NCBI GenBank assembly: GCA_902810735.1
Contig: CADDYX010000006.1
Location: 1-37,219 of the forward strand
Reading direction: 5' to 3'
Source of the DNA: Verrucomicrobiota bacterium
GTDB taxonomy: Bacteria; Verrucomicrobiota; Verrucomicrobiia; Chthoniobacterales; UBA10450
Length of the DNA: 37,219 nucleotides
Below are positions 775 to 35,649 of the stretch, piece after piece. The notes below the pieces were generated by a model that was not told where the DNA came from, did not search any database, and worked only from the letters and a program-made list of their open reading frames with translations. Each line of letters starts with the position of its first letter. Position 1 is the stretch's first letter. The position numbers were made by a program, and so were the translations under genes.

Positions 775-1842
775 ATGCTCCGATGGCGGAGCGGCCGACG
801 ACATCCGTCGACTCAGCATCGGCCGGTGCTGAAGGGGAGAATCAGAGGGCTTTACCTCCGTGGCGAAATCTACTGGTTTGCGAAGCAGGCCAACGGGCGA
901 CGCAGCATGGTCTCGCTGGAAACGCGCGACTATGCGGAAGCGGTGCAACGTGCGCGGGAGATTCTCGACAGTCCGCAGCTTCAGCCGGCGCAATCGTTGA
1001 CGGCTGAAGTAGAGCGGTTTCTCAAGCACAAGGTCGGGACGAATCGCTACAGCCCGATGAGCGCAGACAGCAAACGCTCTTGCCTGACAATGTTCGCGGA
1101 TAGCGTGAAGAACATTCCGCCGACGAATGTCACCGGCTCGCACTGCAAGGCGTTCTACGTCGCATCGAAGCAGCGGATCGCGCCGAGCACAGCGGAAAGT
1201 TACATGTTCACGCTGCGCTCGTTCTTCAATTGGTGCGTGCGCGAGAATCTTTGCCGGCGCAATCCGGTGCTCGATGTGCAGCTTGATCGCATCGATCGGA
1301 AAGGGCGAACACGATTCGCAGACTTGGAGCTCGCGCAGCGATTAATCGCGAACGCGCCTACCGACGAGCTGCGCTACATCCTCTTCTGCGGCTTTCATAC
1401 GGGAATGCGAAAGCTGGAGATCGTGGAAGCTGTTCCGGAGTGGTTCAACTTGTCGGCGCGCACGGTCGAGATTCGTCAGACGGCGACTTTCCGACCGAAG
1501 GATCGCGACGCGCGTACAGTTCCATTGACGGACCAATTTGCTGAATTCCTGGAGCGCTGGGGATTGCGATCGCCGTACGTGTTGCACCCAACCGTCGTGC
1601 ACGGGAAGCACCGCTATCGTTTCGATTTCCGCCGCGCGTTCGGCGATTACATGAAGTCTGAAGGTGTGCCGTGGCTTAGCCCGCACGTGATGCGCCATTC
1701 CTTTGCATCCATCTGCGCGAGCAAGGGCATCGACATTTACCGGATCGCGACGTGGCTTGGTGATGATGTGCGCGTTGTGCAGCGGCACTATGCGAAACTG
1801 CGGCCGGATGATCGCGAGATCATGAAGGCCTTTACGGTGTAG
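775..1842 (+). CDS. Tyrosine-type site-specific integrase of the island
   Basis: This 355-residue protein has the layout of a tRNA-targeting tyrosine integrase. It has a short N-terminal arm-binding domain (about 22-65), a core-binding SAM-like domain (about 70-165, with SYMFTLRSFFNWCV) and a C-terminal catalytic domain. Visible catalytic residues are Arg in HTGMRKLE, a Lys in RPKDRDAR, the HxxR box in SPHVMRHSF and the Tyr nucleophile in QRHYAKL. The usual LGH box reads WLGDD, so the third conserved His/Trp is replaced by Asp. The ATG at 775 is taken because residues from about 22 onward are needed for the arm-binding fold; no strong ribosome-binding site is visible. The gene sits 193 bp inside the left attachment core and overlaps the convergent excisionase-like gene by 11 bp. 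It most likely mediates integration at tRNA-Val. Confidence 0.88.
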   Translation: MLRWRSGRRHPSTQHRPVLKGRIRGLYLRGEIYWFAKQANGRRSMVSLETRDYAEAVQRAREILDSPQLQPAQSLTAEVERFLKHKVGTNRYSPMSADSKRSCLTMFADSVKNIPPTNVTGSHCKAFYVASKQRIAPSTAESYMFTLRSFFNWCVRENLCRRNPVLDVQLDRIDRKGRTRFADLELAQRLIANAPTDELRYILFCGFHTGMRKLEIVEAVPEWFNLSARTVEIRQTATFRPKDRDARTVPLTDQFAEFLERWGLRSPYVLHPTVVHGKHRYRFDFRRAFGDYMKSEGVPWLSPHVMRHSFASICASKGIDIYRIATWLGDDVRVVQRHYAKLRPDDREIMKAFTV

Positions 1843-22139: not shown

Positions 22140-22615
22140 TCACCCTCGCGTATCGTCGTCACACCGGGAGCGTTCTGATCCCGGCATGATCGTATTACAT
22201 TCTGCATCGGAAATCCGGTCAGACGTTCGTGCACAAGGCACACGCACTCGAAGATCGCCGGGGCGGATTTTATAGTGCAACGGCGCGTCGATCATTTTGA
22301 CTTCGCCATCAAAGCAGACTGGCACGGGCGACGGCGTGATCTCCAAAAGCAGTTCCCGAGCAGAAACGCTCTCGAAGTCCTGAGTCTCTCGTACTTGCCG
22401 CTTCAACATGCGAAGGCCGAGGCGCATCAAACCAACCGGGCTGATCGGTTTTGGCACATAGACGGCGAGTTTACCCGCCTCGATGCAGTCGCGGCCGCGG
22501 AGATGAAAATAGTCGAGTTCCTCTGGATTGTTGCAGACGAAGACGAAGCGGCTGCGGAAGAAGCGTTCGCCCGCATCAGTCGTTAGGCGAATCGTCATCA
22601 CGTTCCCCCAGGATC
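22140..22615 (-). pseudogene. C-terminal fragment of a diacylglycerol/lipid kinase (LCB5/YegS-like)
   Basis: The frame encodes the C-terminal lobe of a lipid kinase: FVFVCNNPEELDYFHL, CIEAGKLAVYVPKP, LLLEITPSPVPVCFDGEV and APLHYKIRPGDLRVRVP are in the expected order. The whole N-terminal catalytic domain with the GGDGT motif is missing. At about 22615 similarity switches to a truncated histidine kinase on the same strand but in another frame. This looks like a deletion joining two genes, and the fragment is unlikely to be functional on its own. Confidence 0.6.
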
Positions 22616-23253
22616 CGAACGCAATTGTGAACAGCAGGTCTCTCTGACGGCGCGAATTGCTGTTCCAGTTCACTCAACGTTCCCAGCAGCGGTGCAAGCG
22701 GCGTTCGCAGTTCGTGGCTGACGGTTTCGAGCAGCTTGTTCTTTGCTTCTGTCTGGGCTTCCGCGCGGAGCAGGTCGTTGTTAACTGCGACCCACTCCTC
22801 GTGCGTCGGCAGTTTGACGACGTGCGGAACGAGCGCGCGTAAAACGAGCACCGTAGCGACAGCCAGAAAAGCAGTTCCAAGTCGCGTAGCAACAAGCGAC
22901 CAGACGACGAACGGCCCGTGAAACCAGACAGTCAGCAGACCAAAAAATGAGGTCACACCGCACAGAAACAAGAACGCGGCGATGCAAAGAACGACCCAGC
23001 CAAACGGCACATCCGATCTCTCCCGAACAATGCGAAAGAGTGAAAACGGCATGATGCAGAACGCGACCGCGATGCTGACGCTCGATGCCAAGCTCAGCCA
23101 GGTCAGAAACTGTGGCGGGGTGTAAGCGCGCGACCGCTCGAGCAAAATCGAGAACAGATGAGGACCAAAGTACCAAAATCCAACGACGATGGCGCAGAAG
23201 AGAACGAGAAACGCTGCGTATGAGCGGGCGACACGCTGCAGGCTAACTTTCAT
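22576..23253 (-). pseudogene. Truncated membrane sensor histidine kinase (N-terminal half)
   Basis: A 225-residue reading frame from ATG 23253. About five transmembrane helices (AAFLVLFCAIVVGFWYF, WLSLASSVSIAVAFCIMPF, GWVVLCIAAFLFLCG and others) form an unclassified membrane sensor. A coiled linker and a HisKA helix with the phospho-acceptor box VSHELRTPL (about residue 178) follow. The domain ends near LSELEQQFAPSERP, and the HATPase domain is absent. The last ~14 residues are unrelated and run into lipid-kinase sequence. Without the ATP-binding domain it cannot autophosphorylate, so it is called a pseudogene. No cognate regulator is adjacent. Confidence 0.65.
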
Positions 23254-24169: not shown

Positions 24170-25639
24170 TCAATCCGCATTGCGCGTCTTCGGGAGCCGA
24201 TCTAATCCGTAACGACGGATTTTGTATTGCAGCGCGCGGCGGCTGATCCCGAGCCGGGCTGCGGCTTCCCCGCGGTTGGAAGTGAGTTTCAACAGCGTTT
24301 GGCGAATCAATTCAGCCTCGACTTGCGCTACTGTCATGCCAGGCCGGATAAGAAACGCGTCAGCGACACCGTTCGAATGCAGCAGCGGTGTAGGAAGATC
24401 GTCCATTTCGATGCTGTTGCGCGCTACCGTCACAACCAGCCGCTCAATCAGATTGCGCAACTGGCGCACGTTGCCTGGCCACCGCAGGGTCTGAAAAAAA
24501 CCAACCACTTCACGGCTGAACTTCTTCTCTCTGCGTCGGTGTTTGGCGCAAAAATGCGCGGCGAATGATTGAACCAGGGTGGGAATGTCCTCGGCTCGGT
24601 CGCGCAGCGGCGGGATCTGCACCATGACGATATTCAGCCGGTAGTAGAGGTCTTCGCGGAACCGGCCGTTCATGCTTTCGCTCTCAAGATCTTTGTTTGT
24701 CGCTGCGATGATGCGCGCGTCTGCACGTTCGGCTTTGTGACTGCCGACCGGCCGGAAGATGCCGTCTTCGAGCACGCGGAGAAGATCAGCCTGTCCTTTC
24801 GAAGAAAGGTCACCGATCTCGTCCAAAAACAAGGTGCCGCCGTGCGCCAGGTGGAACCGTCCTGGCTTATCGCGAATCGCGCCGGTGAAAGCTCCGCGGA
24901 CGTGTCCGAATAGCTCCGCCTCAATCAAGCTGTCAGGTAATGCGGCACAGTTCACTGCCACGAACGGACGTGCGCTCCGTCGGCTCTTTTCGTGAATCGC
25001 GCGCGCCGTGATTTCTTTTCCAGTGCCGCTTTCGCCTTCGATCAGGACGGTCACGTCAGTCGCGGCGATCCGTTGCACGAGCTGATTTACTTGCTCCATG
25101 GCGCGACTGGTGCCTACGAAAATGTTCGGTTCCGAACGTCGCTTTAGCCGCGCGCGTAATTGCTGGTCCTCGGCGATGAGTGCTTGATAATCGAGCGCCT
25201 TCCTCACCGAATCGATCAACTGGATTGCGTTGATAGGCTTGGCGAGATAGTCGTACGCCCCCTTCCGAATTGCTTCGACCGCTGTCCGAATTGTTCCCTT
25301 TTCGCCGACGAGAATGAACTGGGTATCCGGCGACACGGAATGGATTTTTTCCATTAAACCGATGGCGTTGGTGCGTTGCGCGTCGAAAGATTTAACGATG
25401 ATGTTGAACGACTCCGCGGCCACGGCGGAAACCGCATCCGCTTCGTGCGACGCGACTGTGACGTTGTAGCCGACGCCTGAGAGCGAGTCCTCCAGGACGC
25501 CGGCGGAGCGCGTGTCGCGGTCGACAACAAGAATGTGAATTTTCGTTGGATCGATCGCCCCAGATTGCGGTGCACATCCCAGCTGATACAAGTGCAAATT
25601 TTGCGCATTGCGACGGATATCACGCGTCAATCTGCGCAC
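24170..25639 (-). CDS. Sigma-54-dependent NtrC-type transcriptional activator with atypical receiver
   Basis: A 489-residue three-domain protein. The receiver (about 34-150) begins IHILVVDRD. At the normal phospho-acceptor position the sequence reads FNIIVKSFDAQ, placing Lys83/Ser84 where Asp is expected, with D86 two residues on. The AAA+ domain (about 170-400) has Walker A GESGTGKE, the sigma-54 contact GAFTGA, Walker B GGTLFLDEIGD and an Arg-finger region FREDLYYRLN. A FIS-type HTH (about 445-485, NRGEAAARLGISRRALQYKI) ends it. It is transcribed divergently from the Ehr operon, with a -24/-12 promoter candidate in the gap, so it probably activates that operon. ATG 25639 leaves a leader of about 33 residues, and a later start is possible. 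Confidence 0.9.
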   Translation of the reverse strand: MRRLTRDIRRNAQNLHLYQLGCAPQSGAIDPTKIHILVVDRDTRSAGVLEDSLSGVGYNVTVASHEADAVSAVAAESFNIIVKSFDAQRTNAIGLMEKIHSVSPDTQFILVGEKGTIRTAVEAIRKGAYDYLAKPINAIQLIDSVRKALDYQALIAEDQQLRARLKRRSEPNIFVGTSRAMEQVNQLVQRIAATDVTVLIEGESGTGKEITARAIHEKSRRSARPFVAVNCAALPDSLIEAELFGHVRGAFTGAIRDKPGRFHLAHGGTLFLDEIGDLSSKGQADLLRVLEDGIFRPVGSHKAERADARIIAATNKDLESESMNGRFREDLYYRLNIVMVQIPPLRDRAEDIPTLVQSFAAHFCAKHRRREKKFSREVVGFFQTLRWPGNVRQLRNLIERLVVTVARNSIEMDDLPTPLLHSNGVADAFLIRPGMTVAQVEAELIRQTLLKLTSNRGEAAARLGISRRALQYKIRRYGLDRLPKTRNAD

Positions 25640-25693: not shown

Positions 25694-25709
25694 CGGCATG
25701 TAGTCTGCA
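25694..25709 (+). promoter_or_regulatory. Candidate sigma-54 (-24/-12) promoter of the Ehr operon
   Basis: The sequence CGGCAT-GTAGT-CTGCA has the invariant GG (25695-25696) and GC (25707-25708) with the required 10-base gap. It matches the TGGCAC-N5-TTGCA consensus at 8 of 11 defined positions. It lies about 83 bp before ATG 25792 and beside the divergently encoded NtrC-type activator. No activator-binding inverted repeat was identified with confidence. Confidence 0.55.
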
Positions 25710-25791: not shown

Positions 25792-26511
25792 ATGAACGCG
25801 CTCGCAAAATACGCGGCCCTCCTCGACGAAGAGTTTTTTGACGAGCCGGAGGTTTCTCCCGCGGACGAATTGTTCGATCGCATTTACCCGCCAACAATCC
25901 GGCAACTCTCGTGGAGGCATTGGACTCCAGTGTGCGTCGCCGTAGAAGCTGTAAAGCTGCTGGGCTTATCTGCGCAGACGCGTCTGCTCGATGTTGGATG
26001 CGGCCCGGGCAAGTTCTGCTTGGTCGCTGGCGCTTTGACTGCAGCGTCAATCACCGGGATCGAACAGCGCAGCGATTTAGTCGAGATAGCCCGGTTCGCA
26101 GCAGCGAAGCATCACCTCAATAACGTCGAGATCATCCACGGCAATGTGAGCGATCTGTCGTTCGCCGATTTCGACGCCTTCTACCTCTACAATCCGTTTG
26201 AGGAGAACGTCTACGAAGGGCAGAAAATCGACTCTACCATTCCGCTTTCACTGAACTTGCTTGTGCGATACACGGCGTACGTCGCCGAGCAGCTGCAATC
26301 AAAGCCGATCGGCACGCGCGTCGTTACCTACGGAGGCGAGGGTTGCGAAATTCCGCCCTGCTTCATCTGTAGGAACACCGCATTCGGAGGCGAGTTAAAG
26401 CTCTGGATCAAAACGCGAGAGCCCAGAGACGAGGATTTCGAGATCGCATTGCACAAAACCGTTCCGATAACCGGCGGCGCCAGTTTCGATTCGAAAAATC
26501 CAAACCTATGA
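25792..26511 (+). CDS. Class I SAM-dependent methyltransferase, first gene of the Ehr operon
   Basis: A 239-residue protein starting at ATG 25792 (MNALAKYAALLDEEFFDEP). A helical N-terminus (about 1-55) precedes a Rossmann domain: motif I LLDVGCGPGKFC (about 69-80), acidic strand ITGIEQRSDLVEIA, then FDAFYLYNPFEEN at motif IV, whose YNPF resembles the NPPF-type or DxxxxNPF segments of small-molecule or protein methyltransferases. The C-terminal CEIPPCFICRNTAF has three cysteines. The substrate is unknown. It is coupled to the zinc-ribbon gene by a 4-bp ATGA overlap, so it belongs to the operon controlled from the sigma-54 promoter upstream. Confidence 0.85.
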   Translation: MNALAKYAALLDEEFFDEPEVSPADELFDRIYPPTIRQLSWRHWTPVCVAVEAVKLLGLSAQTRLLDVGCGPGKFCLVAGALTAASITGIEQRSDLVEIARFAAAKHHLNNVEIIHGNVSDLSFADFDAFYLYNPFEENVYEGQKIDSTIPLSLNLLVRYTAYVAEQLQSKPIGTRVVTYGGEGCEIPPCFICRNTAFGGELKLWIKTREPRDEDFEIALHKTVPITGGASFDSKNPNL

Positions 26512-26939
26512 CATCAATTACTCCTACTCAGTCGAGCAATGTAGCCGGTTGGCTACGCGAACTCTCAGACCTCGAGCGCGGTGGCGCGAATGGCAAACGC
26601 CGCCGCGGCCCAGCCGCCGTCCGAGCCAATTCGCTCCGCGAACTCATTCCCACTTCGATCCTTCTGCACTACGATCGGCTGAGAGAGCGCGGCAGGCAGG
26701 CGGTGGCGCAGGTAAAACGCGGCATCTGCGGGAGCTGTCATCTTGCATTTCCCAGCGGCTCCCTCGCGACACTTCGTCGAACGACCGGTACCCTAAACGT
26801 GTGCGTGCACTGCGGCGCGTTCGTCTACTTGGCAGACGATGAGCCGACTGGCAGCGCCGCGGTTAAACGCGCGGTCAAGGGATCAGCCGCTGCGGTCAAC
26901 CCACGCAAACACGCACGGAGACCAGCCCTTGTTGCATGA
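26508..26939 (+). CDS. C4-type zinc-ribbon protein (PF02591-like)
   Basis: A 143-residue protein. A helical region RELIPTSILLHYDRLRERGRQ leads into a zinc ribbon with two CxxC pairs, ICGSCHLAFPS and VCVHCGAFVYL. This is the arrangement of the C-terminal half of C4-type zinc-ribbon proteins, whose long coiled-coil N-terminus is here shortened. The tail is basic (PRKHARRPA), suggesting nucleic-acid or protein binding. It overlaps both neighbours by 4 bp (ATGA). The following gene is a divergent relative. Its role in the operon is unknown; an accessory or regulatory function is possible. Confidence 0.8.
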   Translation: MTSITPTQSSNVAGWLRELSDLERGGANGKRRRGPAAVRANSLRELIPTSILLHYDRLRERGRQAVAQVKRGICGSCHLAFPSGSLATLRRTTGTLNVCVHCGAFVYLADDEPTGSAAVKRAVKGSAAAVNPRKHARRPALVA

Positions 26940-27283
26940 TCGATCCAAGCTCTGCCCGCGCATCTGGTCCCGCCAGCGAGGAATGCGAATCTCACGGCTT
27001 TGACATCGTTCGCACGCTGCGCGAGCTGGCCTTGATCGAACTGGACCAGAGAACAAGACCCGCTGCGCTCGAATCGCGACGGCTGAATCTCAGACAACAG
27101 CTGTCCGGCGACGTACTGAAGATTCACGATTCGCTCGTCGCAGAAGGCAAGCTGAGCGTCGCCCCGCGCTTTGCTGAAACGTGTACTGAATGCGCTGGCG
27201 ACGTGCCGGTGTGTCGTGAAACGATCCGACTTGCGCGCATCTTTGTCCAATGCCCTCATTGCCGCGCGCTTCTTTACGGGTAG
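26936..27283 (+). CDS. Second, divergent zinc-ribbon protein
   Basis: A 115-residue protein related in layout to its upstream neighbour. A helical part has LRELALIELDQRTRPAALE and GDVLKIHDSLVAEGK. It is followed by a ribbon with CTECAGDVPVC and QCPHCRALLYG. The first pair is CxxC, the last CxxC is intact, and an extra Cys is present. It starts at an ATGA overlap with the preceding gene. Tandem duplication followed by divergence is likely. Function is unknown; the conserved position at the head of an Ehr operon suggests assembly or regulation of the complex (inference). Confidence 0.75.
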   Translation: MIDPSSARASGPASEECESHGFDIVRTLRELALIELDQRTRPAALESRRLNLRQQLSGDVLKIHDSLVAEGKLSVAPRFAETCTECAGDVPVCRETIRLARIFVQCPHCRALLYG

Positions 27284-27322
27284 CCGCTGAGTAGCGCTTC
27301 GGCGAATTATCATCACAAAGGC

Positions 27323-27709
27323 ATGAGCGTGGAGCCTCGAAGCATACTTTGCGCAGACACCAATCCGTATTTCCTTCACTTTGTGGCCGAGTTTCTCTCT
27401 GGGAACGGGTATGAAGTGGATGCAGCGAGCAACGTCACTGACGTATTGTCGCTGCTTCATAACAAAGCTGCGCGATATGGGCTCATCATACTGGCCGATT
27501 GGTTTCCCGGTGTGGAGATCAGCGAACTTTTGAGTGCCGTTCGTGCAACAGCGTTCACGGGTAGGATCGTTGTTAGTTCGGGAGAGTTGTCGGCTGCGCA
27601 GAAGCGGCAATTCGAAGAACTTGGCGCCTCTTCATTTCTGCTGAAGCCGGCCGGCTATTCTGACTTATTAAGCCTTGTAACTCAGCCGGGACAACAGCTT
27701 CCGAACTGA
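27323..27709 (+). CDS. Single-domain response-regulator receiver protein
   Basis: A 128-residue stand-alone receiver domain. It has the first-strand acidic residue in ILCADTNPYF (D12), central strand YGLIILADWFPG, Ser-rich strand 4 RIVVSSGE, and the conserved Lys in FLLKPAGY. In an ungapped alignment the usual phospho-Asp position is Ala58, with Asp59 next to it, so phosphorylation may be altered or shifted. No output domain is present. It sits 39 bp after the zinc-ribbon pair and 7 bp before the ferredoxin/NuoB-like gene. It may transmit a signal to the complex or to the sigma-54 activator. Confidence 0.85.
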   Translation: MSVEPRSILCADTNPYFLHFVAEFLSGNGYEVDAASNVTDVLSLLHNKAARYGLIILADWFPGVEISELLSAVRATAFTGRIVVSSGELSAAQKRQFEELGASSFLLKPAGYSDLLSLVTQPGQQLPN

Positions 27710-27716
27710 TCTTGTC

Positions 27717-28490
27717 ATGAAGCGTCGCACCCCAAATGCATTTCGTGTTCGGGTCGCGGAAGGCCAGCCCGTCATTCCCGACGTTGCTGCCGCCAGCGTC
27801 CCAGCACGCTTTCGGGGAAAGCCGTCGATTGATTCGTCGCGGTGTCCCGATGGCTGCGTAGAATGCATTACTGCCTGTCCTACGGGAGCTATCTCGGCGA
27901 ACCCGTTAACCATCGATCTTGGCGCGTGTGTGTTTTGCCCGATCTGCGCCGCGGCATGTCCGGAAGGCGCGATCACGTACACGAACAATTACAAAATGGC
28001 GGCGACATCGCGTGAAGGATTGCTTTTGCGCGAAGGCTGCGCGGTCACGCCTGAAACCGCCTCGAGTGAGATTCGCCGTCTGTTCGGGCGTTCGCTCAAG
28101 CTGCGTTCGGTATCAGCCGGCGGTTGCAGTGGTTGCGAACTGGAACTGAATGCGCTCGGCAACGTCAATTTCGACATCGGCCGCTTTGGGATCGAGTTCG
28201 TCGCATCGCCGCGACACGCCGACGGCATCGTGATCTCCGGCACGACGACGCGCGCGATGGCGCACGCCCTGAAGGCCACCTACGAAGCGGTACCGAAACC
28301 GAAGCTGCTCATTCTTTTTGGCACGTGCGCGATCAGCGGTGGAATCTTCCAGCGTTCGGATCAGCTCGCGCGAGATTTCATCGAGAAGCATAAGGTTGAC
28401 CTGTACATTCCGGGTAATCCGCCGCATCCCCTGACATTCATACATGGCTTGCTTGAGTATCTGCGCGGGAGGGCGCCAACACGGCGCTGA
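27717..28490 (+). CDS. Ferredoxin-NuoB-like fusion: electron-transfer small subunit of the Ehr complex
   Basis: A 257-residue fusion of a HyfH/NuoI-like 2[4Fe-4S] ferredoxin (cluster cysteines C43, C47, C50, C54 and C71, C74, C77, C81) and a HycG/HyfI/NuoB-like domain (about 125-250). The NuoB-like part has GGCSGCELELNAL (C137, C140) and FGTCAISGG (C204). Where relatives have Cys in the PGCPPxP motif, this protein has Asn234 (PGNPPHP), so one ligand of the proximal [4Fe-4S] cluster is missing. The subunit should pass electrons from ferredoxin-type clusters toward the large subunit on the cytoplasmic face. It starts 7 bp after the receiver gene, and ATG 27717 gives the expected N-terminus. Confidence 0.9.
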   Translation: MKRRTPNAFRVRVAEGQPVIPDVAAASVPARFRGKPSIDSSRCPDGCVECITACPTGAISANPLTIDLGACVFCPICAAACPEGAITYTNNYKMAATSREGLLLREGCAVTPETASSEIRRLFGRSLKLRSVSAGGCSGCELELNALGNVNFDIGRFGIEFVASPRHADGIVISGTTTRAMAHALKATYEAVPKPKLLILFGTCAISGGIFQRSDQLARDFIEKHKVDLYIPGNPPHPLTFIHGLLEYLRGRAPTRR

Positions 28491-28517
28491 CTTTGTCGCC
28501 CGGCCCGGTTTCACAGT

Positions 28518-29192
28518 ATGGAACTTAACGCGGTGGAAGTCGGCTCTCTGCTGCACATGCCTGAGAAGCAGGTTCGGGAATGGGCGCATTCCGGCAGGCT
28601 GCCGCATCTCGGTGCGCAGGGACGCTTGCGTTTCAACCGGCAGGCGGTTCTTGAGTGGGCACTGGCGTGCGGCCATCCGCTAAATCTTGGCCCAGTCGAA
28701 GAAGACGCCGCCGGATTACCGCCGGTAAGCGAGCTCTTCACGCCAGATCGCTTCCATTACGGAGTACCTGGCACCACCTTCGGCGAGGTATTTCGCGCTG
28801 CGCTCGATGTCTTCGCGTTGCCACCGGACACAGACAAGGAGCTGCTCTATGACCTGCTCGTTAGCCGAGAGAAGTTAATGACGACGGCAATCGGTGATGG
28901 CCTTGCTATTCCGCACCTTCGAGTTCCGCTCGTAGCGAAAGTGCCGCGACCGACGCTTGGTATCTTCTTTACCACGCAGCCGATCGACATGGGAGCGCTC
29001 GATCATAAGCCGGTCCACACGCTCTTCGTGCTTTTAAGTCTCACTCCAAAGCAGCACCTCGAGTTGCTCGCGCGACTTTCATTTATATTCCGTCAACCGG
29101 CATTCGTACAGTTGCTCGGCGACCGAGCCCCCGCGGAGACGATCTGCGATTGGATTCACCGGCTGGTGCCTAACGACAAGCGCGTCAGATGA
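28518..29192 (+). CDS. HTH (excisionase/MerR-like) fused to a PTS EIIA (fructose/nitrogen-type) domain
   Basis: A 224-residue fusion. Residues 1-52 form a small winged HTH (VGSLLHMPEKQVREWAHSG, then LRFNRQAVLEWAL). Residues about 72-222 form a PTS EIIA type-2 domain with the phosphorylation-site His133 in GDGLAIPHLRVP, plus VHTLFVLLSLTPKQHLELLARL. No other PTS gene is in the window. In known PTS-Ntr systems EIIA phosphorylation reports metabolic state. Here the domain is tied to a DNA-binding module and encoded within the complex operon, with its stop overlapping the membrane-subunit start (ATGA). It likely couples Ehr expression or activity to carbon/nitrogen status (inference). Confidence 0.88.
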   Translation: MELNAVEVGSLLHMPEKQVREWAHSGRLPHLGAQGRLRFNRQAVLEWALACGHPLNLGPVEEDAAGLPPVSELFTPDRFHYGVPGTTFGEVFRAALDVFALPPDTDKELLYDLLVSREKLMTTAIGDGLAIPHLRVPLVAKVPRPTLGIFFTTQPIDMGALDHKPVHTLFVLLSLTPKQHLELLARLSFIFRQPAFVQLLGDRAPAETICDWIHRLVPNDKRVR

Positions 29193-31162
29193 TCGTTCTC
29201 TTCATCATTGCGCTCGTGCTGCACGGCCTTAATCTGATTCTGCCCGCGCTAATCCGTGATAGCCGCCGACTCAATGTTGTAGCCAACGTTGTGAACTCAA
29301 CCGCGCTTCTGTGCGGCCTTTCCTTCTCTCTGTTTCTTCTGCTCGGTACTCATCGACTCGAATACCGCTTCTTTCTGCCAGTCGCAGGTACGGTCGTAAT
29401 TGGATTCGACGGGCTATCAGTGTTCTTTCTCTTTACCTTTCAGCTGCTATCGCTCGCCGGAAGTGCCTACGCGATCCATTACCTGCGGCACTACATCAAC
29501 CTTGGCCTGTCAGTGCGGGCGCACCTCTGGTTTCTGACGCTGCTCATCGTCTCGATGCAGCTCGTCGTCATCTCCCACAATGCTCTGGTCTTTCTCATTG
29601 CCTGGGAGGCGATGGCGCTTGGAGCCTATTTCTCGATCGTATTCGAGAAGGAGAAGCCGGAAGTGCGACGTGGCGGGTTGTGGTACTTGGTCGCGACTCA
29701 TGCCAGCGCTCTCTTGCTCTACGTCTGTTTTCTGATCTTGCACGAGCTTACCGGCAGTTGGAACTTCGCTGACTTTTCAGCACACGCCGCCTACGACCCG
29801 CGAGTTCTAGCCGTCATCATGCTCACCGGCTTTGTAGGGTTCGGGATCAAGGCCGGGTTCATGCCGTTCCATGCATGGCTCCCGAATGCGCATCCGGCGG
29901 CGCCAGCCCACGTTTCGGCTTTGCTCTCCGCGATCAACATCAAAGCAGGGATCTATGGCATCGTGCGTTTAATGCTCATCGTGCCCGCGATGAACCCCGC
30001 GTACGGCTGGGGCCTTCTTGCTGTGTCACTCGTTTCGGCAGTGCTTGGCGTCTGGTACGCACTGGCGCAGCACGAGGTTAAGAGACTTCTCGCCTATCAT
30101 TCGGTGGAAAACATCGGGATCATCGGCTTGGGTTTAGCCGTCGCCTGGCTGGGTCGCTGTTACGGATTACCGGAGCTCGTCTTATTAGGCTTTGCCGGTG
30201 CGCTTCTTCACACGCTCAATCACGCGATCTTCAAAGGCCTACTGTTCTTCGGCGCTGGCCACGTCTATCTTCAGGCGCACACCGGCGACGTCGAGAAGAT
30301 GGGTGGGTTTGCTCGTGTGATACCAGTCACCGCAACCGCGTTTCTCGTCGCCGCAATCTCGATTTGCGGCTTACCTCCTTTCAACGGCTTCATCAGCGAG
30401 TTTTTGATCTACAAAAGCTTCTTTCGCGGTGCCAGCATGCTGCACGGCTACGCGCCGTTGGTCCTGCTGTTCTCCTCAGTCGGCCTGGCATTCATGGGCG
30501 GACTTGCCGTCGCCTGTTTCACCAAGCTTTACGGAATAGTGTTTCTAGGTGCTAACCGTTTTAGCGCAGATCTAACGCCAAAAAAAGAGTCAGTGGTTTC
30601 GTCCTTTGCCTTACTCGCGCTGGCAACTCTATGCGCAATCATCGGTGTATTCCCGCACACCGGATTGTGCCTGATCTCGCCTGCGCTTGTCGAACTTACC
30701 GGCACCGTTGTTGCGCCGTCCGGCTGGGCGTCGCCACTGCAACAGTTATCGACGGTGTTCCTTCTCTTCCTCGCGCTTGTGGCTGCGATCTACGGCGTGA
30801 AATTGCTTCTGCAACGCAAAGCTGGCGTTCGCCTGCGCGAAACTTGGAGCTGCGGTTATGCATCAGTCACGTCGCGCATGCAATACACCGCTTCCGGCTT
30901 CGCGGAAGAGCTGGTCAGGCTCGGGCGTCCGATGCTGGCTGTCGCCGTCCATTGGACAACGTTTCGCGGCGTCACGCCGGTAGCGAGCGGGTTCCGGTCG
31001 CACGTTCACGACCGAATGGAAAACGCTTGGCTCGCACTTGATCGCGCAATTGGCATCGTGCTCGGCGCCTTTCGCTGGATTCAAAGCGGCAACATTCGCC
31101 ACTACGTCCTCTATACGTTCGCAGCCGTTGTTTTTTACCTCCTGTGCGCGCTCATATGGTGA
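29189..31162 (+). CDS. HyfB-like proton-translocating membrane subunit of the Ehr complex
   Basis: A 657-residue polytopic protein of the NuoL/NuoN/MrpA antiporter-like superfamily, closest in length and features to HyfB. It has more than a dozen hydrophobic helices; the family core includes the Glu in FLIAWEAMALGAYFSIV and lysines in GFGIKAGFMPFHAWLPNAHP, LAYHSVENIGIIGLG and HTLNHAIFKGLLFFGAGH. A C-terminal soluble segment and a last helix (31100-31160) follow. Such subunits conduct protons or sodium ions. It overlaps the HTH-EIIA gene (ATGA) upstream and the NuoH-like gene downstream. Confidence 0.9.
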   Translation: MIVLFIIALVLHGLNLILPALIRDSRRLNVVANVVNSTALLCGLSFSLFLLLGTHRLEYRFFLPVAGTVVIGFDGLSVFFLFTFQLLSLAGSAYAIHYLRHYINLGLSVRAHLWFLTLLIVSMQLVVISHNALVFLIAWEAMALGAYFSIVFEKEKPEVRRGGLWYLVATHASALLLYVCFLILHELTGSWNFADFSAHAAYDPRVLAVIMLTGFVGFGIKAGFMPFHAWLPNAHPAAPAHVSALLSAINIKAGIYGIVRLMLIVPAMNPAYGWGLLAVSLVSAVLGVWYALAQHEVKRLLAYHSVENIGIIGLGLAVAWLGRCYGLPELVLLGFAGALLHTLNHAIFKGLLFFGAGHVYLQAHTGDVEKMGGFARVIPVTATAFLVAAISICGLPPFNGFISEFLIYKSFFRGASMLHGYAPLVLLFSSVGLAFMGGLAVACFTKLYGIVFLGANRFSADLTPKKESVVSSFALLALATLCAIIGVFPHTGLCLISPALVELTGTVVAPSGWASPLQQLSTVFLLFLALVAAIYGVKLLLQRKAGVRLRETWSCGYASVTSRMQYTASGFAEELVRLGRPMLAVAVHWTTFRGVTPVASGFRSHVHDRMENAWLALDRAIGIVLGAFRWIQSGNIRHYVLYTFAAVVFYLLCALIW

Positions 31163-32082
31163 ATCGCGACTCTCTCTCTTGGCTCGCATGGGTAGTTGTC
31201 CTCGCGATCGCACCGCTGCTTCTCGGCATTATCAATAAACTAAAAGCGCGGTTATCCGGCCGTTTCGGCGCGACGGTGTTTCAGCCTTACTACGAGCTGC
31301 TGCGGCTAGCGCGGAAGGAAACCGTTTACAGCACGAGCGCAGGATTCATCACGCGTGTCGCGCCGGTGATCGTCTGGAGCACGATCGCGTTCGCGATGCT
31401 GTTGCTGCCGCTCGGACGATCAGCGCCGATTTCATTTTCCGGCGACATCATTCTGTTCGCCTACCTCCTCGCACTGGGGCGGTTCTTCCAAATCCTCGCA
31501 GCGCTCGACGTAGGCAGCAGCTTCGAAGGAATGGGCGCGAGCCGTGAAGCTCGGTTTGCGGTGTTCGCCGAGCCAATTTTCTTCTTCACTGTCGGCAGCC
31601 TCGCGATTGTCACACGCAGCTATTCATTCGCGACAATTCTCGGCGGTATCTCATGGACCGATCCCCTCTTCGTTGTTTTTGTCTGCGTGGGAGTGCTCTC
31701 GCTCTTTTTCCTGATGATCACCGAGTGCTCGCGTATGCCTGTCGATGATCCAACTACGCACCTCGAACTGACCATGATTCACGAGGTCATGATTCTCGAT
31801 GCTTCGGGCATTGATCTCATGCTCTATCAGCACGCTGCGTCCTCAAAGCTTCTGCTCTATAGCATCCTAACTGCGCTGTTGTTGAATCCGTTTGGCGTGC
31901 TCGGTCCCGCCTCCGGCATGGCGCTGTTCATTCTGATTGTTCTCGCGCTCGCTGCGGCGGTCGCGCTCGTGGAAACGCTCATGGCGCGCTTTCGGCTCGT
32001 GCTGGTCCCGCAATTCCTGCTCTTCGCGACCGCGATAGGTGTGTTGAACACCCTGATCTTCACGTTTTCCCGTCACTCGTGA
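31156..32082 (+). CDS. HyfC/NuoH-like membrane subunit of the Ehr complex
   Basis: About 308 residues starting at ATG 31156; GTG 31144 and 31159 are alternatives. The protein has eight or so transmembrane helices. Family sites of the NuoH/HycD quinone or proton entry channel are visible: FQPYYELLRLARKE, SSFEGMGASREARFAVFAEP, ITECSRMPVDDPTTHLELTM and IHEVMILD. The start overlaps the HyfB-like stop by 7 bp. This subunit links the soluble iron-sulfur arm to the antiporter-like subunits and completes the minimal membrane arm of a group-4 hydrogenase-related complex. Confidence 0.92.
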   Translation: MVNRDSLSWLAWVVVLAIAPLLLGIINKLKARLSGRFGATVFQPYYELLRLARKETVYSTSAGFITRVAPVIVWSTIAFAMLLLPLGRSAPISFSGDIILFAYLLALGRFFQILAALDVGSSFEGMGASREARFAVFAEPIFFFTVGSLAIVTRSYSFATILGGISWTDPLFVVFVCVGVLSLFFLMITECSRMPVDDPTTHLELTMIHEVMILDASGIDLMLYQHAASSKLLLYSILTALLLNPFGVLGPASGMALFILIVLALAAAVALVETLMARFRLVLVPQFLLFATAIGVLNTLIFTFSRHS

Positions 32083-32711
32083 TCAACGTCCTCACAATTC
32101 TGTTCTGTCTGACGCTGATTTATCTCGCCGTCAGCACCCGTCTATCAGCCTACGTGCTGATCCTTGTCTTTCAGGGAGCTCTCGTCGCAGGCGTTCATAT
32201 CCTAGCCTACCTCGCGGACTCTGAGGGCTCACATCTTGTGGTCGCGGCAGCGGTGTTAGGTGTGCGCACGATCTTAATACCTATTTACATCTTAAGGATT
32301 ATTCGACAGCTCGACATGAGCCGTGGCGATCGTACCCGCCGCTACCATCCCGCGTTCCTCATCCAAATGACGCTTGTGGTGGTCGGCGCATTTATCCTTT
32401 CGCAGCAGCTATCGCGATTCACTCCGCTCGATGTGGTTCCTTTCGGAACTGCCATCGCCGGCATCGCAGCCGGCGGCCTTCTGATTGTCCGCCGTCGGCT
32501 GCTCCTCGCCCACATCGTCGGCTTTCTTATCATGGAAAACGGGCTGTTTCTGCTCGGCCTTGGCATCCAGGCCGATATGCCGTGGATCATCGAACTCGCC
32601 GGATTGCTCGATCTTTTCGTCCTCGTCTTTCTGATGGGTATCGCCATCAACCATCTCAAGACGCATTTCGCGGAAGCGGCGAGCGAGCAACTGACCGGTC
32701 TTCGCGAATGA
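32079..32711 (+). CDS. HyfE-like membrane subunit of the Ehr complex
   Basis: A 210-residue membrane protein with about six helices, resembling HyfE (related to NuoK and MnhC). Evidence includes SAYVLILVFQGALVAGVHIL, IVGFLIMENGLFLLGLGI (the MEN-containing NuoK-like helix with a membrane Glu) and LLDLFVLVFLMGIAINHL. It begins at GTG 32079 in a GTGA overlap with the previous gene and ends in an ATGA overlap with the next, so it is fully coupled. It probably contributes to the ion path of the membrane arm. Confidence 0.85.
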   Translation: MINVLTILFCLTLIYLAVSTRLSAYVLILVFQGALVAGVHILAYLADSEGSHLVVAAAVLGVRTILIPIYILRIIRQLDMSRGDRTRRYHPAFLIQMTLVVVGAFILSQQLSRFTPLDVVPFGTAIAGIAAGGLLIVRRRLLLAHIVGFLIMENGLFLLGLGIQADMPWIIELAGLLDLFVLVFLMGIAINHLKTHFAEAASEQLTGLRE

Positions 32712-34168
32712 ACGCCGCTGTCGTCGCCGCACTGCTGGTCGGGCCAGTAGTTGCGACTGTTGTCGCGGCATTGAGTCCCTCAAAGCTCGTAAACCACAGT
32801 GTCACACTTGCTGCTAGCGTGGCGCATCTCGTGGCGTCGCTCTACTGCTTGATCGCGCAACACAATCCGTTTCCCGCCGGCTCGTGGCTCGCTGTCGATC
32901 CGCTGGGCGCATTCTTTCTCGCAATTCTCTCGCATACGTTTCTGCTCGTAACACTCTATTCACCGCGTTTCCTGCGCCGGATGGACGCGCCGGAGTATAT
33001 CCGATCCAACCGTCTCTTTTATCCGGCGCTAAGCTTCTATCTTCTCGCGAACACACTCGTGCTCGTCGTGCAGCAAATCGCGCTGCTCTGGGTCGTGTTG
33101 GAACTCACTACGTTCAGCCTCGTCCCGCTAATTTATTTCTATCGCACGAAAGAGTCGCTCGAAGCGGTCTGGAAATACCTCTTCCTCGTTTCAATCGGAC
33201 TGATTTTTCTCTTCGTCGGCATCCTCTTTCTCGCGCTTTCAGCTCGCGGCGTAGTTGCTCAGTCGGGATTCGTCGCATCCACCCTCGCCGACGCTGCCGG
33301 ACGTCTGAATCCGCTATGGGTGAAGGCGAGTTTCGTTTTCGTCCTCGCCGGGTTAAGTCCGAAGATCGGGCTCGCGCCACTCCATCCGGCAGATATCGAT
33401 GCGACGGCCAACGCTCCCGCGCCAGTCGCTGCACTAATGGCGGCCTCACTTCGGAGCACCGCCATTCTCGTCTTGCTGCGCTTTTATCAAGTCGTCGCGG
33501 CCAGCAGTGTCCGCCCTTTCGCGCAGCGGCTACTGATTATAGCCGGCCTCGCCTCTCTCGCTGTCGCGGCGATCTACATGTGGCGCAGCCGAAATTACAA
33601 ACGGTTGCTCGCATATTCGAGTGTCGAACATCTCGGTATCGTCGCACTAGGCATCGGAATCGGCGGTATCGCTTTGCTCGGCGCGCTTCTCCACCTGCTC
33701 TTTAACTCACTCGGCAAAGTCGTGCTCTTTTTTATGGCTGGAAACATCCATCAAAACTACGGCTCCCGCGAAATTCAGCGCGTCACTGCGCTGTCAAAAC
33801 GTTTGCCGTGGACAGGCCTGCTCTGGGGCGTCGCGTTTTTCTACATCATCGGAACACCGCCGTTCGGCATTTTCTTCAGCGAACTTTTGCTGCTCCGCGG
33901 CATGATCCGCGGTGCCAACTGGCTGGCGCTCGGATTGTTTCTCGCGCTTCTGATGGTGATCTTCATTAGCCTCGGGCGCGCTATGCTTCGCATGTTGCAG
34001 ACGCCCGGCGCAGCCTCGGCGCCTAACGAGCAGATCGAACCGTTCAACGCTTCTCACGCGCTTGGTCTTTACGCAATGGCGCTTTCGATTCCTCTCGCGC
34101 TCTTCCAACCGATCCTGCTCTTCAATCCACTCCGAGCGATTCTGGCCGGGTTTGGCGTTGCGATATGA
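32708..34168 (+). CDS. HyfF-like antiporter-like membrane subunit of the Ehr complex
   Basis: A 486-residue polytopic protein of the NuoN/HyfF group from ATG 32708; longer readings run into the HyfE-like gene. Marker segments are IALLWVVLELTTFSLVPLIY with the conserved Glu, LAGLSPKIGLAPLHPADIDA with the central Lys, KRLLAYSSVEHLGIVALGIG and HLLFNSLGKVVLFFMAGNIH. With the HyfB-like protein this gives two antiporter-like subunits, as in hydrogenase-4-type complexes. It overlaps the large-subunit gene by 4 bp (ATGA at 34165). Confidence 0.9.
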   Translation: MNAAVVAALLVGPVVATVVAALSPSKLVNHSVTLAASVAHLVASLYCLIAQHNPFPAGSWLAVDPLGAFFLAILSHTFLLVTLYSPRFLRRMDAPEYIRSNRLFYPALSFYLLANTLVLVVQQIALLWVVLELTTFSLVPLIYFYRTKESLEAVWKYLFLVSIGLIFLFVGILFLALSARGVVAQSGFVASTLADAAGRLNPLWVKASFVFVLAGLSPKIGLAPLHPADIDATANAPAPVAALMAASLRSTAILVLLRFYQVVAASSVRPFAQRLLIIAGLASLAVAAIYMWRSRNYKRLLAYSSVEHLGIVALGIGIGGIALLGALLHLLFNSLGKVVLFFMAGNIHQNYGSREIQRVTALSKRLPWTGLLWGVAFFYIIGTPPFGIFFSELLLLRGMIRGANWLALGLFLALLMVIFISLGRAMLRMLQTPGAASAPNEQIEPFNASHALGLYAMALSIPLALFQPILLFNPLRAILAGFGVAI

Positions 34169-35649
34169 ACGCACAGCCGGTCGCGCCGGGCAGCATTATC
34201 GAGCTGGATGAATCGGTGCCGCTGAAACGCGGCGACTGGATTGCGGAATCGCGCCGGCTAGTGCGCGATGGCGCTCGGCCGGTGGCGTTGCTTGGCACAA
34301 AAGACGGGTACGGAGTCCGCGTCTGGCTCGCGCTTGCGTCAGATTCAACCGGCGAGCTGTTCCTCAACAGCACTGTCTTTTCAGCGCACGACCGGCTCGC
34401 CTACGCCGCGCTTTCCTACGACGTGCCGCAGATGAATTACTTCGAGTGCGATCTCTATGAGCAAACGGGCATCGTGCCGGAACGGCATCCATGGCTTCGC
34501 CCGGTCCGCTCAGGCAACGGATGGCGCCGGGACGGCAACGCCTACTCGTTCTACCGCGTCGAAGGAGAAGAGGTTCATGAAGTCGGCGTCGGGCCGGTGC
34601 ACGCCGGCGTTATCGAACCCGGCCATTTTCGTTTCCAGTGCCACGGCGAAGAGATTCTCCACGTTGAAATTCACCTCGGCTACCAGCATCGCGGCGTTGA
34701 GGAATTGCTTCCACGGCAGAACCGTGCGCAACAGCTCGTGCTGGTTGAGTCGATCGCAGGGGATTCCGTCATCGCGCACAGTACAGCTTTTTGCGCGGCG
34801 ATCGAAACGCTGTCGGGATTTAAGCCGTCCCTGCGCTCTCAGGCGGTCCGCGGCATCGCAGCCGAGCTCGAGCGAATCGCAATGCATCTCTCGACTCTCA
34901 GCGGTATCGCGACCGATATCGGATTCGCCTTGCCCGCGGCAGCATTCGGCGCGCTGCGAACTTCTGTCATTAACCTGACCGCGGAGATTTGCGGCAGTCG
35001 CTTTGGCCGTGGCTGGATTATTCCTGGCGGCGTCCGTTTCGACTTCGACGAGGCGTTGATCGCGCGGACGCGTTCCGTCCTTTTGGACGTGCTGGCGAAG
35101 TTTCCTGACGTCGAGGCGCTGCTCTTCGATGCTCCATCAGCGCTCGCGCGAATGGAAGGCACTGGAATCGTGACGCTGGAGCAAGCGTGCGCGATTCCTC
35201 TCGTTGGTCTCGCCGCCCGCGCCTCTGGCGTATCGATTGATGCGCGATCGGATTTCCCCTACGGAATCTACCGCTATTCGTCAGTGCAATCGCCGACACT
35301 TGAATCCGGCGACGTCTACGCGCGCGCCAAGTTGCGCGCCTTGGAGATTCGCGCCTCGATCGAATTTATTCGAGAGCAACTCGACAATCTGCCACCGACA
35401 AAATCGAATGCGCCGGTGGCCGAGATGAAGCCAAACGGCTTCGTCGTTAGTTTAGTCGAGGGGCATCGCGGAGAAATCGCACACATGGTGTTCACCGATG
35501 CCCGCGGGACCATCTCGCAGGTGAAGATCAAGGACCCTTCATTCAACAACTGGCAAGGCGTGGCGGTCGGAGTCCGCGAAAATGGCATCTCCGATTTCCC
35601 GCTCTGCAACAAAAGTTTCGATCTCTCTTACGCCGGCCACGATCTCTAA
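34165..35649 (+). CDS. NuoC-NuoD-like large subunit of the Ehr complex, lacking NiFe-site cysteines
   Basis: A 494-residue fusion like HycE/HyfG. A 30-kDa NuoC-like domain (about 35-150) is followed by a NuoD/hydrogenase large-subunit domain (about 150-494). The conserved core HLGYQHRGVEELLPRQN is present. The first CxxC region instead reads VESIAGDSVIAHSTAF, and the C-terminal CxxC region reads FPLCNKSFDLSYAGHDL with a single cysteine. The four nickel ligands of [NiFe] hydrogenases are therefore absent, the definition of energy-converting hydrogenase-related (Ehr) proteins. It cannot be an H2-evolving enzyme of the known kind, and no hyp maturation genes are nearby. Its redox partner is unknown. 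It is the last gene of the operon. Confidence 0.92.
   Translation: MNAQPVAPGSIIELDESVPLKRGDWIAESRRLVRDGARPVALLGTKDGYGVRVWLALASDSTGELFLNSTVFSAHDRLAYAALSYDVPQMNYFECDLYEQTGIVPERHPWLRPVRSGNGWRRDGNAYSFYRVEGEEVHEVGVGPVHAGVIEPGHFRFQCHGEEILHVEIHLGYQHRGVEELLPRQNRAQQLVLVESIAGDSVIAHSTAFCAAIETLSGFKPSLRSQAVRGIAAELERIAMHLSTLSGIATDIGFALPAAAFGALRTSVINLTAEICGSRFGRGWIIPGGVRFDFDEALIARTRSVLLDVLAKFPDVEALLFDAPSALARMEGTGIVTLEQACAIPLVGLAARASGVSIDARSDFPYGIYRYSSVQSPTLESGDVYARAKLRALEIRASIEFIREQLDNLPPTKSNAPVAEMKPNGFVVSLVEGHRGEIAHMVFTDARGTISQVKIKDPSFNNWQGVAVGVRENGISDFPLCNKSFDLSYAGHDL

Follow-up and report, generated by a model that had tools for sequence, protein, structure and literature searches.

We analysed a 37,219-nucleotide stretch of DNA (the window) from contig CADDYX010000006.1 of a Verrucomicrobiota bacterium, and its open reading frames place an intact Ehr operon of eleven genes, all read in one direction, at positions 25792 to 35649. 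Ehr complexes are known, and their function has been described as unknown (PMC6349859, PMC10284858, PMC12342949). The sequence of the complex encoded here, though tightly conserved, is that of neither a hydrogenase nor an enzyme with a quinone site of the complex I type. We propose, with moderate confidence, that Ehr is a redox-driven ion pump of the complex I family that would use a ferredoxin-type donor and a non-nickel pocket, with its own sigma-54 activator, a link to the phosphotransferase system (PTS) and a SulP-related anion. Related genomes, contigs and loci are designated below by our G, C and L numbers.

An Ehr operon beside a divergent regulator gene

The genes run in the order MT, ZR1, ZR2, REC, FeB, HTH17-EIIA, HyfB, HyfC, HyfE, HyfF and large subunit. 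Seven of the ten gene junctions are 4-bp overlaps (ATGA/GTGA), as the initial annotation had noted in taking most of the genes to be bound into one unit; its ten-gene order is here corrected to eleven. Intergenic gaps separate ZR2 from REC (39 bp), REC from FeB (7 bp) and FeB from EIIA (27 bp). The features are as follows.

24170 to 25639, minus strand: S54RR, divergent sigma-54 enhancer-binding regulator with receiver, AAA+ (GAFTGA) and Fis-type helix-turn-helix (HTH) domains (Pfam Sigma54_activat 5e-69, Response_reg 1e-12, HTH_8 2e-9)
25592 to 25606, no strand: palindrome GTGCAAATTTTGCGC (consensus GTGCAA-N3-TTGCAC), putative regulator site, present in seven loci
25694 to 25709, plus strand: sigma-54-like -24/-12 element CGGCATGTAGTCTGCA, 102 bp from the palindrome
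25792 to 26511, plus strand: MT, class I S-adenosylmethionine-dependent methyltransferase (Pfam E 5e-11; orthologues 39-66% identical)
26508 to 26939, plus strand: ZR1, C4 zinc-ribbon protein (Zn_ribbon_9 in orthologues)
26936 to 27283, plus strand: ZR2, shorter zinc-ribbon paralogue of ZR1 (BLASTP E 2e-5 to ZR1)
27323 to 27709, plus strand: REC, stand-alone receiver with the phospho-Asp replaced by Ala (Pfam Response_reg 4.5e-11; alignment)
27717 to 28490, plus strand: FeB, two-[4Fe-4S] ferredoxin domain (HyfH/NuoI-like) fused to a small subunit (HyfI/NuoB-like) (Pfam)
28518 to 29192, plus strand: HTH_17-PTS EIIA fusion, His133 retained (Pfam EIIA_2 2e-19, HTH_17 5e-8)
29189 to 31162, plus strand: HyfB-like antiporter-type membrane subunit (NCBIfam hydrogenase 4 subunit B 7e-149)
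31159 to 32082, plus strand: HyfC/NuoH-like membrane anchor, starting at GTG 31159 or ATG 31156 (Pfam NADHdh 8e-28)
32079 to 32711, plus strand: HyfE-like membrane subunit (homologues at the same place in relatives; no Pfam match)
32708 to 34168, plus strand: HyfF-like antiporter-type membrane subunit (NCBIfam hydrogenase 4 subunit F 3e-74)
34165 to 35649, plus strand: large subunit (EhrL, NuoC-D type) without nickel ligands (Pfam Complex1_49kDa 1e-41; alignment; tree)

Antiporter-like and NuoH-like membrane subunits thus stand with an iron-sulfur small subunit in a single operon, as in Ehr, and further Pfam support comes from Oxidored_q6 (4e-26) and Proton_antipo_M (2e-50).

The former nickel pocket is conserved without its ligands

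When the large subunit is aligned with HycE and HyfG of E. coli, the four nickel-ligand cysteines fall on A198, S201, S488 and G491, which bears out the initial annotation in its claim that all four ligand positions have been lost. The four Cys in two CxxC motifs that mark group 4 [NiFe] hydrogenases are absent. Among 114 relatives, G491 never varies and S488 hardly does, and the pocket residues G199, D200, E151 and I150 are invariant. Most relatives have Ala at position 198, eleven have Cys there, and nearly all have Thr or Ser at position 201. E151 aligns with E21 of MbhL, which serves proton reduction in the membrane-bound hydrogenase MBH (PMC7684303). The quinone ligands of complex I are H38 and Y87 of NuoD/Nqo4 (PMC7684303), and in all 114 aligned Ehr proteins these positions are Ile150 and Gly199 instead.

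Three other readings were ruled out. The motif DPSFNNW was considered as the C-terminal ligand motif, and the HycE/HyfG alignment puts the ligands at S488 and G491. A decaying hydrogenase is excluded by purifying selection together with the conserved replacements of the nickel ligands. Loss of nickel maturation from the genome is contradicted by the presence of HypD with HypC- and HypE-like neighbours; at this locus (L183, contig C158 of G000) HypD was recognised by Pfam and the neighbours by eye. Since these Hyp genes indicate that the genome can mature NiFe enzymes, another NiFe hydrogenase probably exists.

Selection and phylogenetic position

The complex is conserved in more than 100 relatives under strong purifying selection. 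Differences between the window and its nearest relative, G345, lie mostly at third codon positions (for HyfB, 0.18/0.10/0.50 differences at codon positions 1/2/3), which indicates that the genes are real. Across the alignment columns on which at least 95% of relatives agree, the window deviates nowhere in EIIA, HyfB, HyfC, HyfE or HyfF and three times in the large subunit. Its sole deviation at such columns of FeB concerns the proximal cluster, whose four positions are Cys in relatives and C137, C140, C204 and N234 in the window. Asn234 (codon 28416-28418) replaces the fourth Cys in the window genome only, and Cys is found there in 109 relatives. A Cys codon would have to change at two bases to give Asn, which makes a plain base-calling error unlikely.

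In a large-subunit tree of 122 rows, in which the outgroup branches are long and the named Geobacter EhrL is left out, Ehr stands apart from E. coli HycE, HyfG and NuoCD, from MbhL, from Thermus Nqo4 and from the two NuoD of the window's own genome, with 99% support in the Shimodaira-Hasegawa-like approximate likelihood ratio test (SH-aLRT). Such a phylogeny had been suggested as a check in the initial annotation, and its outcome, Ehr clearly outside NuoD, Mbh, HycE and HyfG, agrees with the Pfam and NCBIfam matches in upholding the call of an Ehr complex with hydrogenase-4/complex I-like subunits. The window and five relatives of its own order form a six-row clade (SH-aLRT 100). This clade is sister (98) to Ehr of Ignavibacteriota and Bacteroidota, not to most other Verrucomicrobiota Ehr, a placement that fits horizontal acquisition. 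The clade occurs in just 6 of 213 genomes of the order; a seventh match, in G348, belongs to another Ehr clade. One genome (G288, locus L127) carries two tandem Ehr operons of different Ehr clades, each with its own HTH-EIIA gene.

A phosphorylation-site-free sigma-54 regulator and its predicted operator

S54RR combines the AAA+ domain with GAFTGA and the HTH of a sigma-54 enhancer-binding protein, and RpoN is present in the genome. In all six aligned orthologues the receiver carries Ser where the phospho-Asp would be (VKSFD motif). The stand-alone REC protein has Ala at this position in the window and Asp in the G345 REC only. Neither S54RR nor the window REC therefore carries the phosphorylatable Asp of a canonical response regulator.

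Between S54RR and the first MT or ZR gene, seven loci contain the palindrome GTGCAA-N3-TTGCAC, from which the window copy departs by one mismatch. G309, G345 and G319 each have a single exact copy in the whole genome, at the S54RR locus, and G420 has three. Two of the G420 copies (L174, position 6879, and L175, position 7623) lie away from the MT locus and may mark further targets of the regulator. The distance from the palindrome to the best sigma-54-like element is 100-102 or 113-114 bp in all seven loci, two spacing classes that differ by about one helical turn; the spacing at L120 relies on a second, imperfect palindrome copy. Because some of these loci are related by descent, their matching spacings do not count as seven independent events. 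Taken alone, the sigma-54-like element beats shuffled sequences (p < 0.05) in four of the seven loci, the window among them (shuffle p 0.044). From the site and its spacing we infer that the palindrome is the likely binding site of S54RR.

Further along the minus strand, at 22579-23253, lies a piece of a sensor kinase with an ethylene-receptor-like N-terminal domain and a partial HisKA. An open reading frame at 22140-22673 overlaps it, so the kinase gene may be frameshifted. Close to the contig end a recombinase of the phage integrase family is encoded (775-1842, plus strand).

The MT, ZR and REC genes form a clade-specific layer

All seven ZR1 orthologues match Pfam Zn_ribbon_9 (best E 7e-7), and a clear ZR2 orthologue was found in G309 only. 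A structural model of MT shows a Rossmann-type fold resembling many class I methyltransferases; reading the substrate from the fold was dropped because the model is modest (predicted local distance difference test score, pLDDT, 62) and its matches are generic methyltransferases.

Ehr follows the S54RR-MT-ZR1 block in the window, in G309 and in G345, where ZR1 lies ahead of MT. In G319 and G420 the same block precedes an isocitrate-dehydrogenase-like gene and a SulP-STAS transporter gene, with no Ehr nearby. In G218 (L172), S54RR and MT, with the palindrome and a near-consensus sigma-54 element, are followed by a DUF1275 membrane protein, with neither SulP nor Ehr. G143 (L138) has an Ehr of a different clade, and there a ZR gene lies ahead of Ehr, divergent from a homologue of S54RR that is 54% identical and has Gly for the phospho-Asp; this block is without MT. 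The ends of two G310 contigs (L121 on C155 and L150 on C110) share an exact 127-bp overlap inside SulP, from which the operon would read MT-ZR1-SulP-FeB-EIIA-Ehr, split by assembly; this join is likely, not certain, as such an overlap may be an assembly k-mer.

The initial annotation had counted five unusual accessory genes and had made their presence beside close Ehr homologues a test. The outcome was mixed. MT, ZR1 and REC stand beside Ehr in G309 and G345 (ZR2 in G309 only), the two operons of the family whose upstream sequence reaches far enough; in G310, SulP replaces ZR2 and REC, and in G425 a hybrid kinase/receiver end lies upstream of FeB and Ehr in place of the MT/ZR/REC block. The MT, ZR and REC genes are a clade-specific layer that belongs with the divergent sigma-54 regulator, which the annotation had left out. 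Its fifth accessory gene, HTH-EIIA, proved to be standard.

HTH-EIIA and SulP recur beside Ehr

Of 70 Ehr loci with enough upstream sequence, not all from independent genomes, 52 in several phyla have HTH-EIIA beside Ehr (50 by BLAST and two more by profile search), which rules out the fusion as an oddity of the window operon. The phosphorylatable His of PtsN-type EIIA, His133 in the window, is kept in 54 of 54 homologues, and the window's genome also encodes PTS EI, with HPr and an apparent HPr kinase adjoining. The natural reading would be a PTS-state sensor for Ehr expression or activity. No literature linking Ehr to EIIA was found among open-access papers.

Across 101 Ehr loci scanned for neighbours, SulP is the most recurrent non-core gene (12 loci). 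Ten loci from Ignavibacteriota and Bacteroidota read SulP-EIIA-HyfB-C-E-F-G-FeB, and SulP also lies upstream of Ehr in one other Verrucomicrobiota locus and in G310. Melioribacter and Stygiobacter, which can be cultured, both carry SulP-EIIA-Ehr. With SulP upstream of Ehr and the S54RR block shared between SulP and Ehr operons, the two are probably functionally coupled, and we regard the Ehr-SulP link as well supported. The transporter is near DauA (539 bits, below the NCBIfam cut-off of 614) and less so BicA, and 6ki1 is its nearest solved structure; a substrate assignment was dropped, as the best model, DauA, fell below its cut-off. A literature search by bicarbonate terms in open-access papers found none linking Ehr to SulP. 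Downstream of Ehr at six loci, among them L056 (10892-11758), is a gene that by eye resembles NfnA/ferredoxin-NADP reductase, in most cases on the opposite strand, which gives a hint of ferredoxin metabolism.

Discussion

The window operon shares with the E. coli hydrogenase-4 and formate hydrogenlyase (FHL) systems (Hyf, Hyc) the HyfB, C, E, F, G order and an activator gene beside the operon, which in E. coli is the sigma-54-dependent hyfR. It differs from them in lacking nickel ligands, HyfD and a maturation protease gene, and in the fusion of HyfH with HyfI. With complex I (NuoD/Nqo4) it has in common a large subunit of the NuoC-D type and homologues of NuoB and NuoH; unlike complex I, it has invariant Ile and Gly in place of H38 and Y87 and occupies a separate branch of the tree. 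The membrane-bound sulfane reductase (MBS) of Pyrococcus is likewise an ion-pumping relative without a NiFe centre, but in MBS two of the four Cys remain and the Glu is missing (PMC7684303), whereas the window complex has lost all four Cys and keeps the Glu. Ehr of Geobacter, Nitrospira, Margulisbacteria and Melainabacteria also has subunits like those of group 4 hydrogenases and a large subunit without nickel ligands (PMC6349859, PMC7894505, PMC10284858, PMC12342949). In contrast to these, the window operon has its FeB gene first rather than last, a dedicated sigma-54 regulator and the MT/ZR/REC genes; the linkage to HTH-EIIA and SulP was found in none of the literature searched.

In the mechanism that we propose, a soluble low-potential electron donor, most likely ferredoxin, would reduce the two [4Fe-4S] clusters of FeB; the electrons would pass on to the proximal cluster and be consumed in the pocket where the ancestral enzyme carried its NiFe site. 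This pocket may carry out a proton-coupled reduction without nickel. Since E151 is kept and both complex I quinone ligands are lost, the reaction is probably neither H2 chemistry nor complex-I-style quinone reduction. By analogy with their family, the antiporter-like HyfB and HyfF would pump ions. Expression would be set by S54RR, which has an unphosphorylatable receiver and is predicted to bind the palindrome about 100 bp upstream of the sigma-54-like promoter; the activator may work without phosphorylation, perhaps with REC, ZR or EIIA as protein partners. HTH-EIIA would tie the operon to the PTS phosphorylation state. As SulP is encoded with the complex in many relatives, an anion transported by SulP is probably the substrate or counter-ion.

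Other readings of the same evidence were weighed. If Ehr were to pass electrons from ferredoxin to quinone as a complex-I-like oxidoreductase, with the quinone bound by other residues, its complex-I-type subunits, its retained ion-pump subunits and the place of NuoD/Nqo4 among its closest solved relatives would be accounted for; we consider this a credible though unlikely alternative, as the replacement of both Nqo4 ligand positions has no exception among the 114 Ehr. We also think it unlikely, to a slightly greater degree, that electrons come from a separately encoded formate dehydrogenase, with SulP transporting formate or bicarbonate. A formate link has been suggested in Geobacter, in which Ehr subunits are more abundant when cells are grown on formate (PMC7894505), a formate dehydrogenase-Ehr hypothesis has been proposed for Margulisbacteria (PMC6349859), and the architecture is FHL-like; against this, no formate dehydrogenase was recognised among the recurrent neighbours at the 101 Ehr loci, the window genome itself not having been searched for one. 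A sulfur reductase resembling MBS, in which an open-site proximal [4Fe-4S] cluster directly reduces a sulfur compound, appears very improbable. The proximal cluster of MBS is catalytic and has three Cys ligands (PMC7684303), which the Asn at one of the four FeB positions recalls, and complex-I quinone ligands are absent in both; however, the fourth Cys in 109 relatives means that an open site is not a family property, the Glu lost in MBS is kept here, and the open site of MBS results from shortening of an N-terminal loop, whereas the CxxC of the window FeB is intact.

The upstream genes raise a separate question, namely whether MT, ZR and REC are unrelated passengers that lie upstream of Ehr by chance. 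They are absent beside most Ehr operons and from the region upstream of FeB in G425, and REC is degenerate. Yet the S54RR/ZR block is found with Ehr in two distinct Ehr clades and with SulP at other loci, read in the same direction throughout, the palindrome spacing is conserved, and 4-bp overlaps join MT, ZR1 and ZR2, all of which makes chance quite unlikely in our view.

Several observations weigh against the ferredoxin-driven, non-nickel ion pump that we prefer. Among neighbours at the 101 loci, no gene for an electron donor or acceptor proved to be conserved in the Ehr operon. The window operon lacks SulP, for which the rest of its genome was not searched, and HTH-EIIA is missing at 18 of the 70 Ehr loci, mostly in Gastranaerophilales. 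The sigma-54-like element is weak by itself in three of the seven loci. Finally, C234N could mean altered or reduced activity in the window genome.

A bolder proposal, which we offer as speculative and doubtful, is that SulP, HTH-EIIA and Ehr form one functional unit across several phyla, a PTS-gated, redox-driven system that would transport or convert an anion, be it bicarbonate, formate or a dicarboxylate, at a conserved non-nickel site in the former NiFe pocket, here under a phosphorylation-independent sigma-54 activator. The kept proton-delivery Glu and the conserved replacement of all nickel ligands point to a distinct proton-coupled chemistry and not to a decayed hydrogenase. Ehr complexes are widespread, and the SulP partner, the PTS-type sensor and the regulator with its predicted operator offer testable routes to their substrate and to the conditions under which they work.

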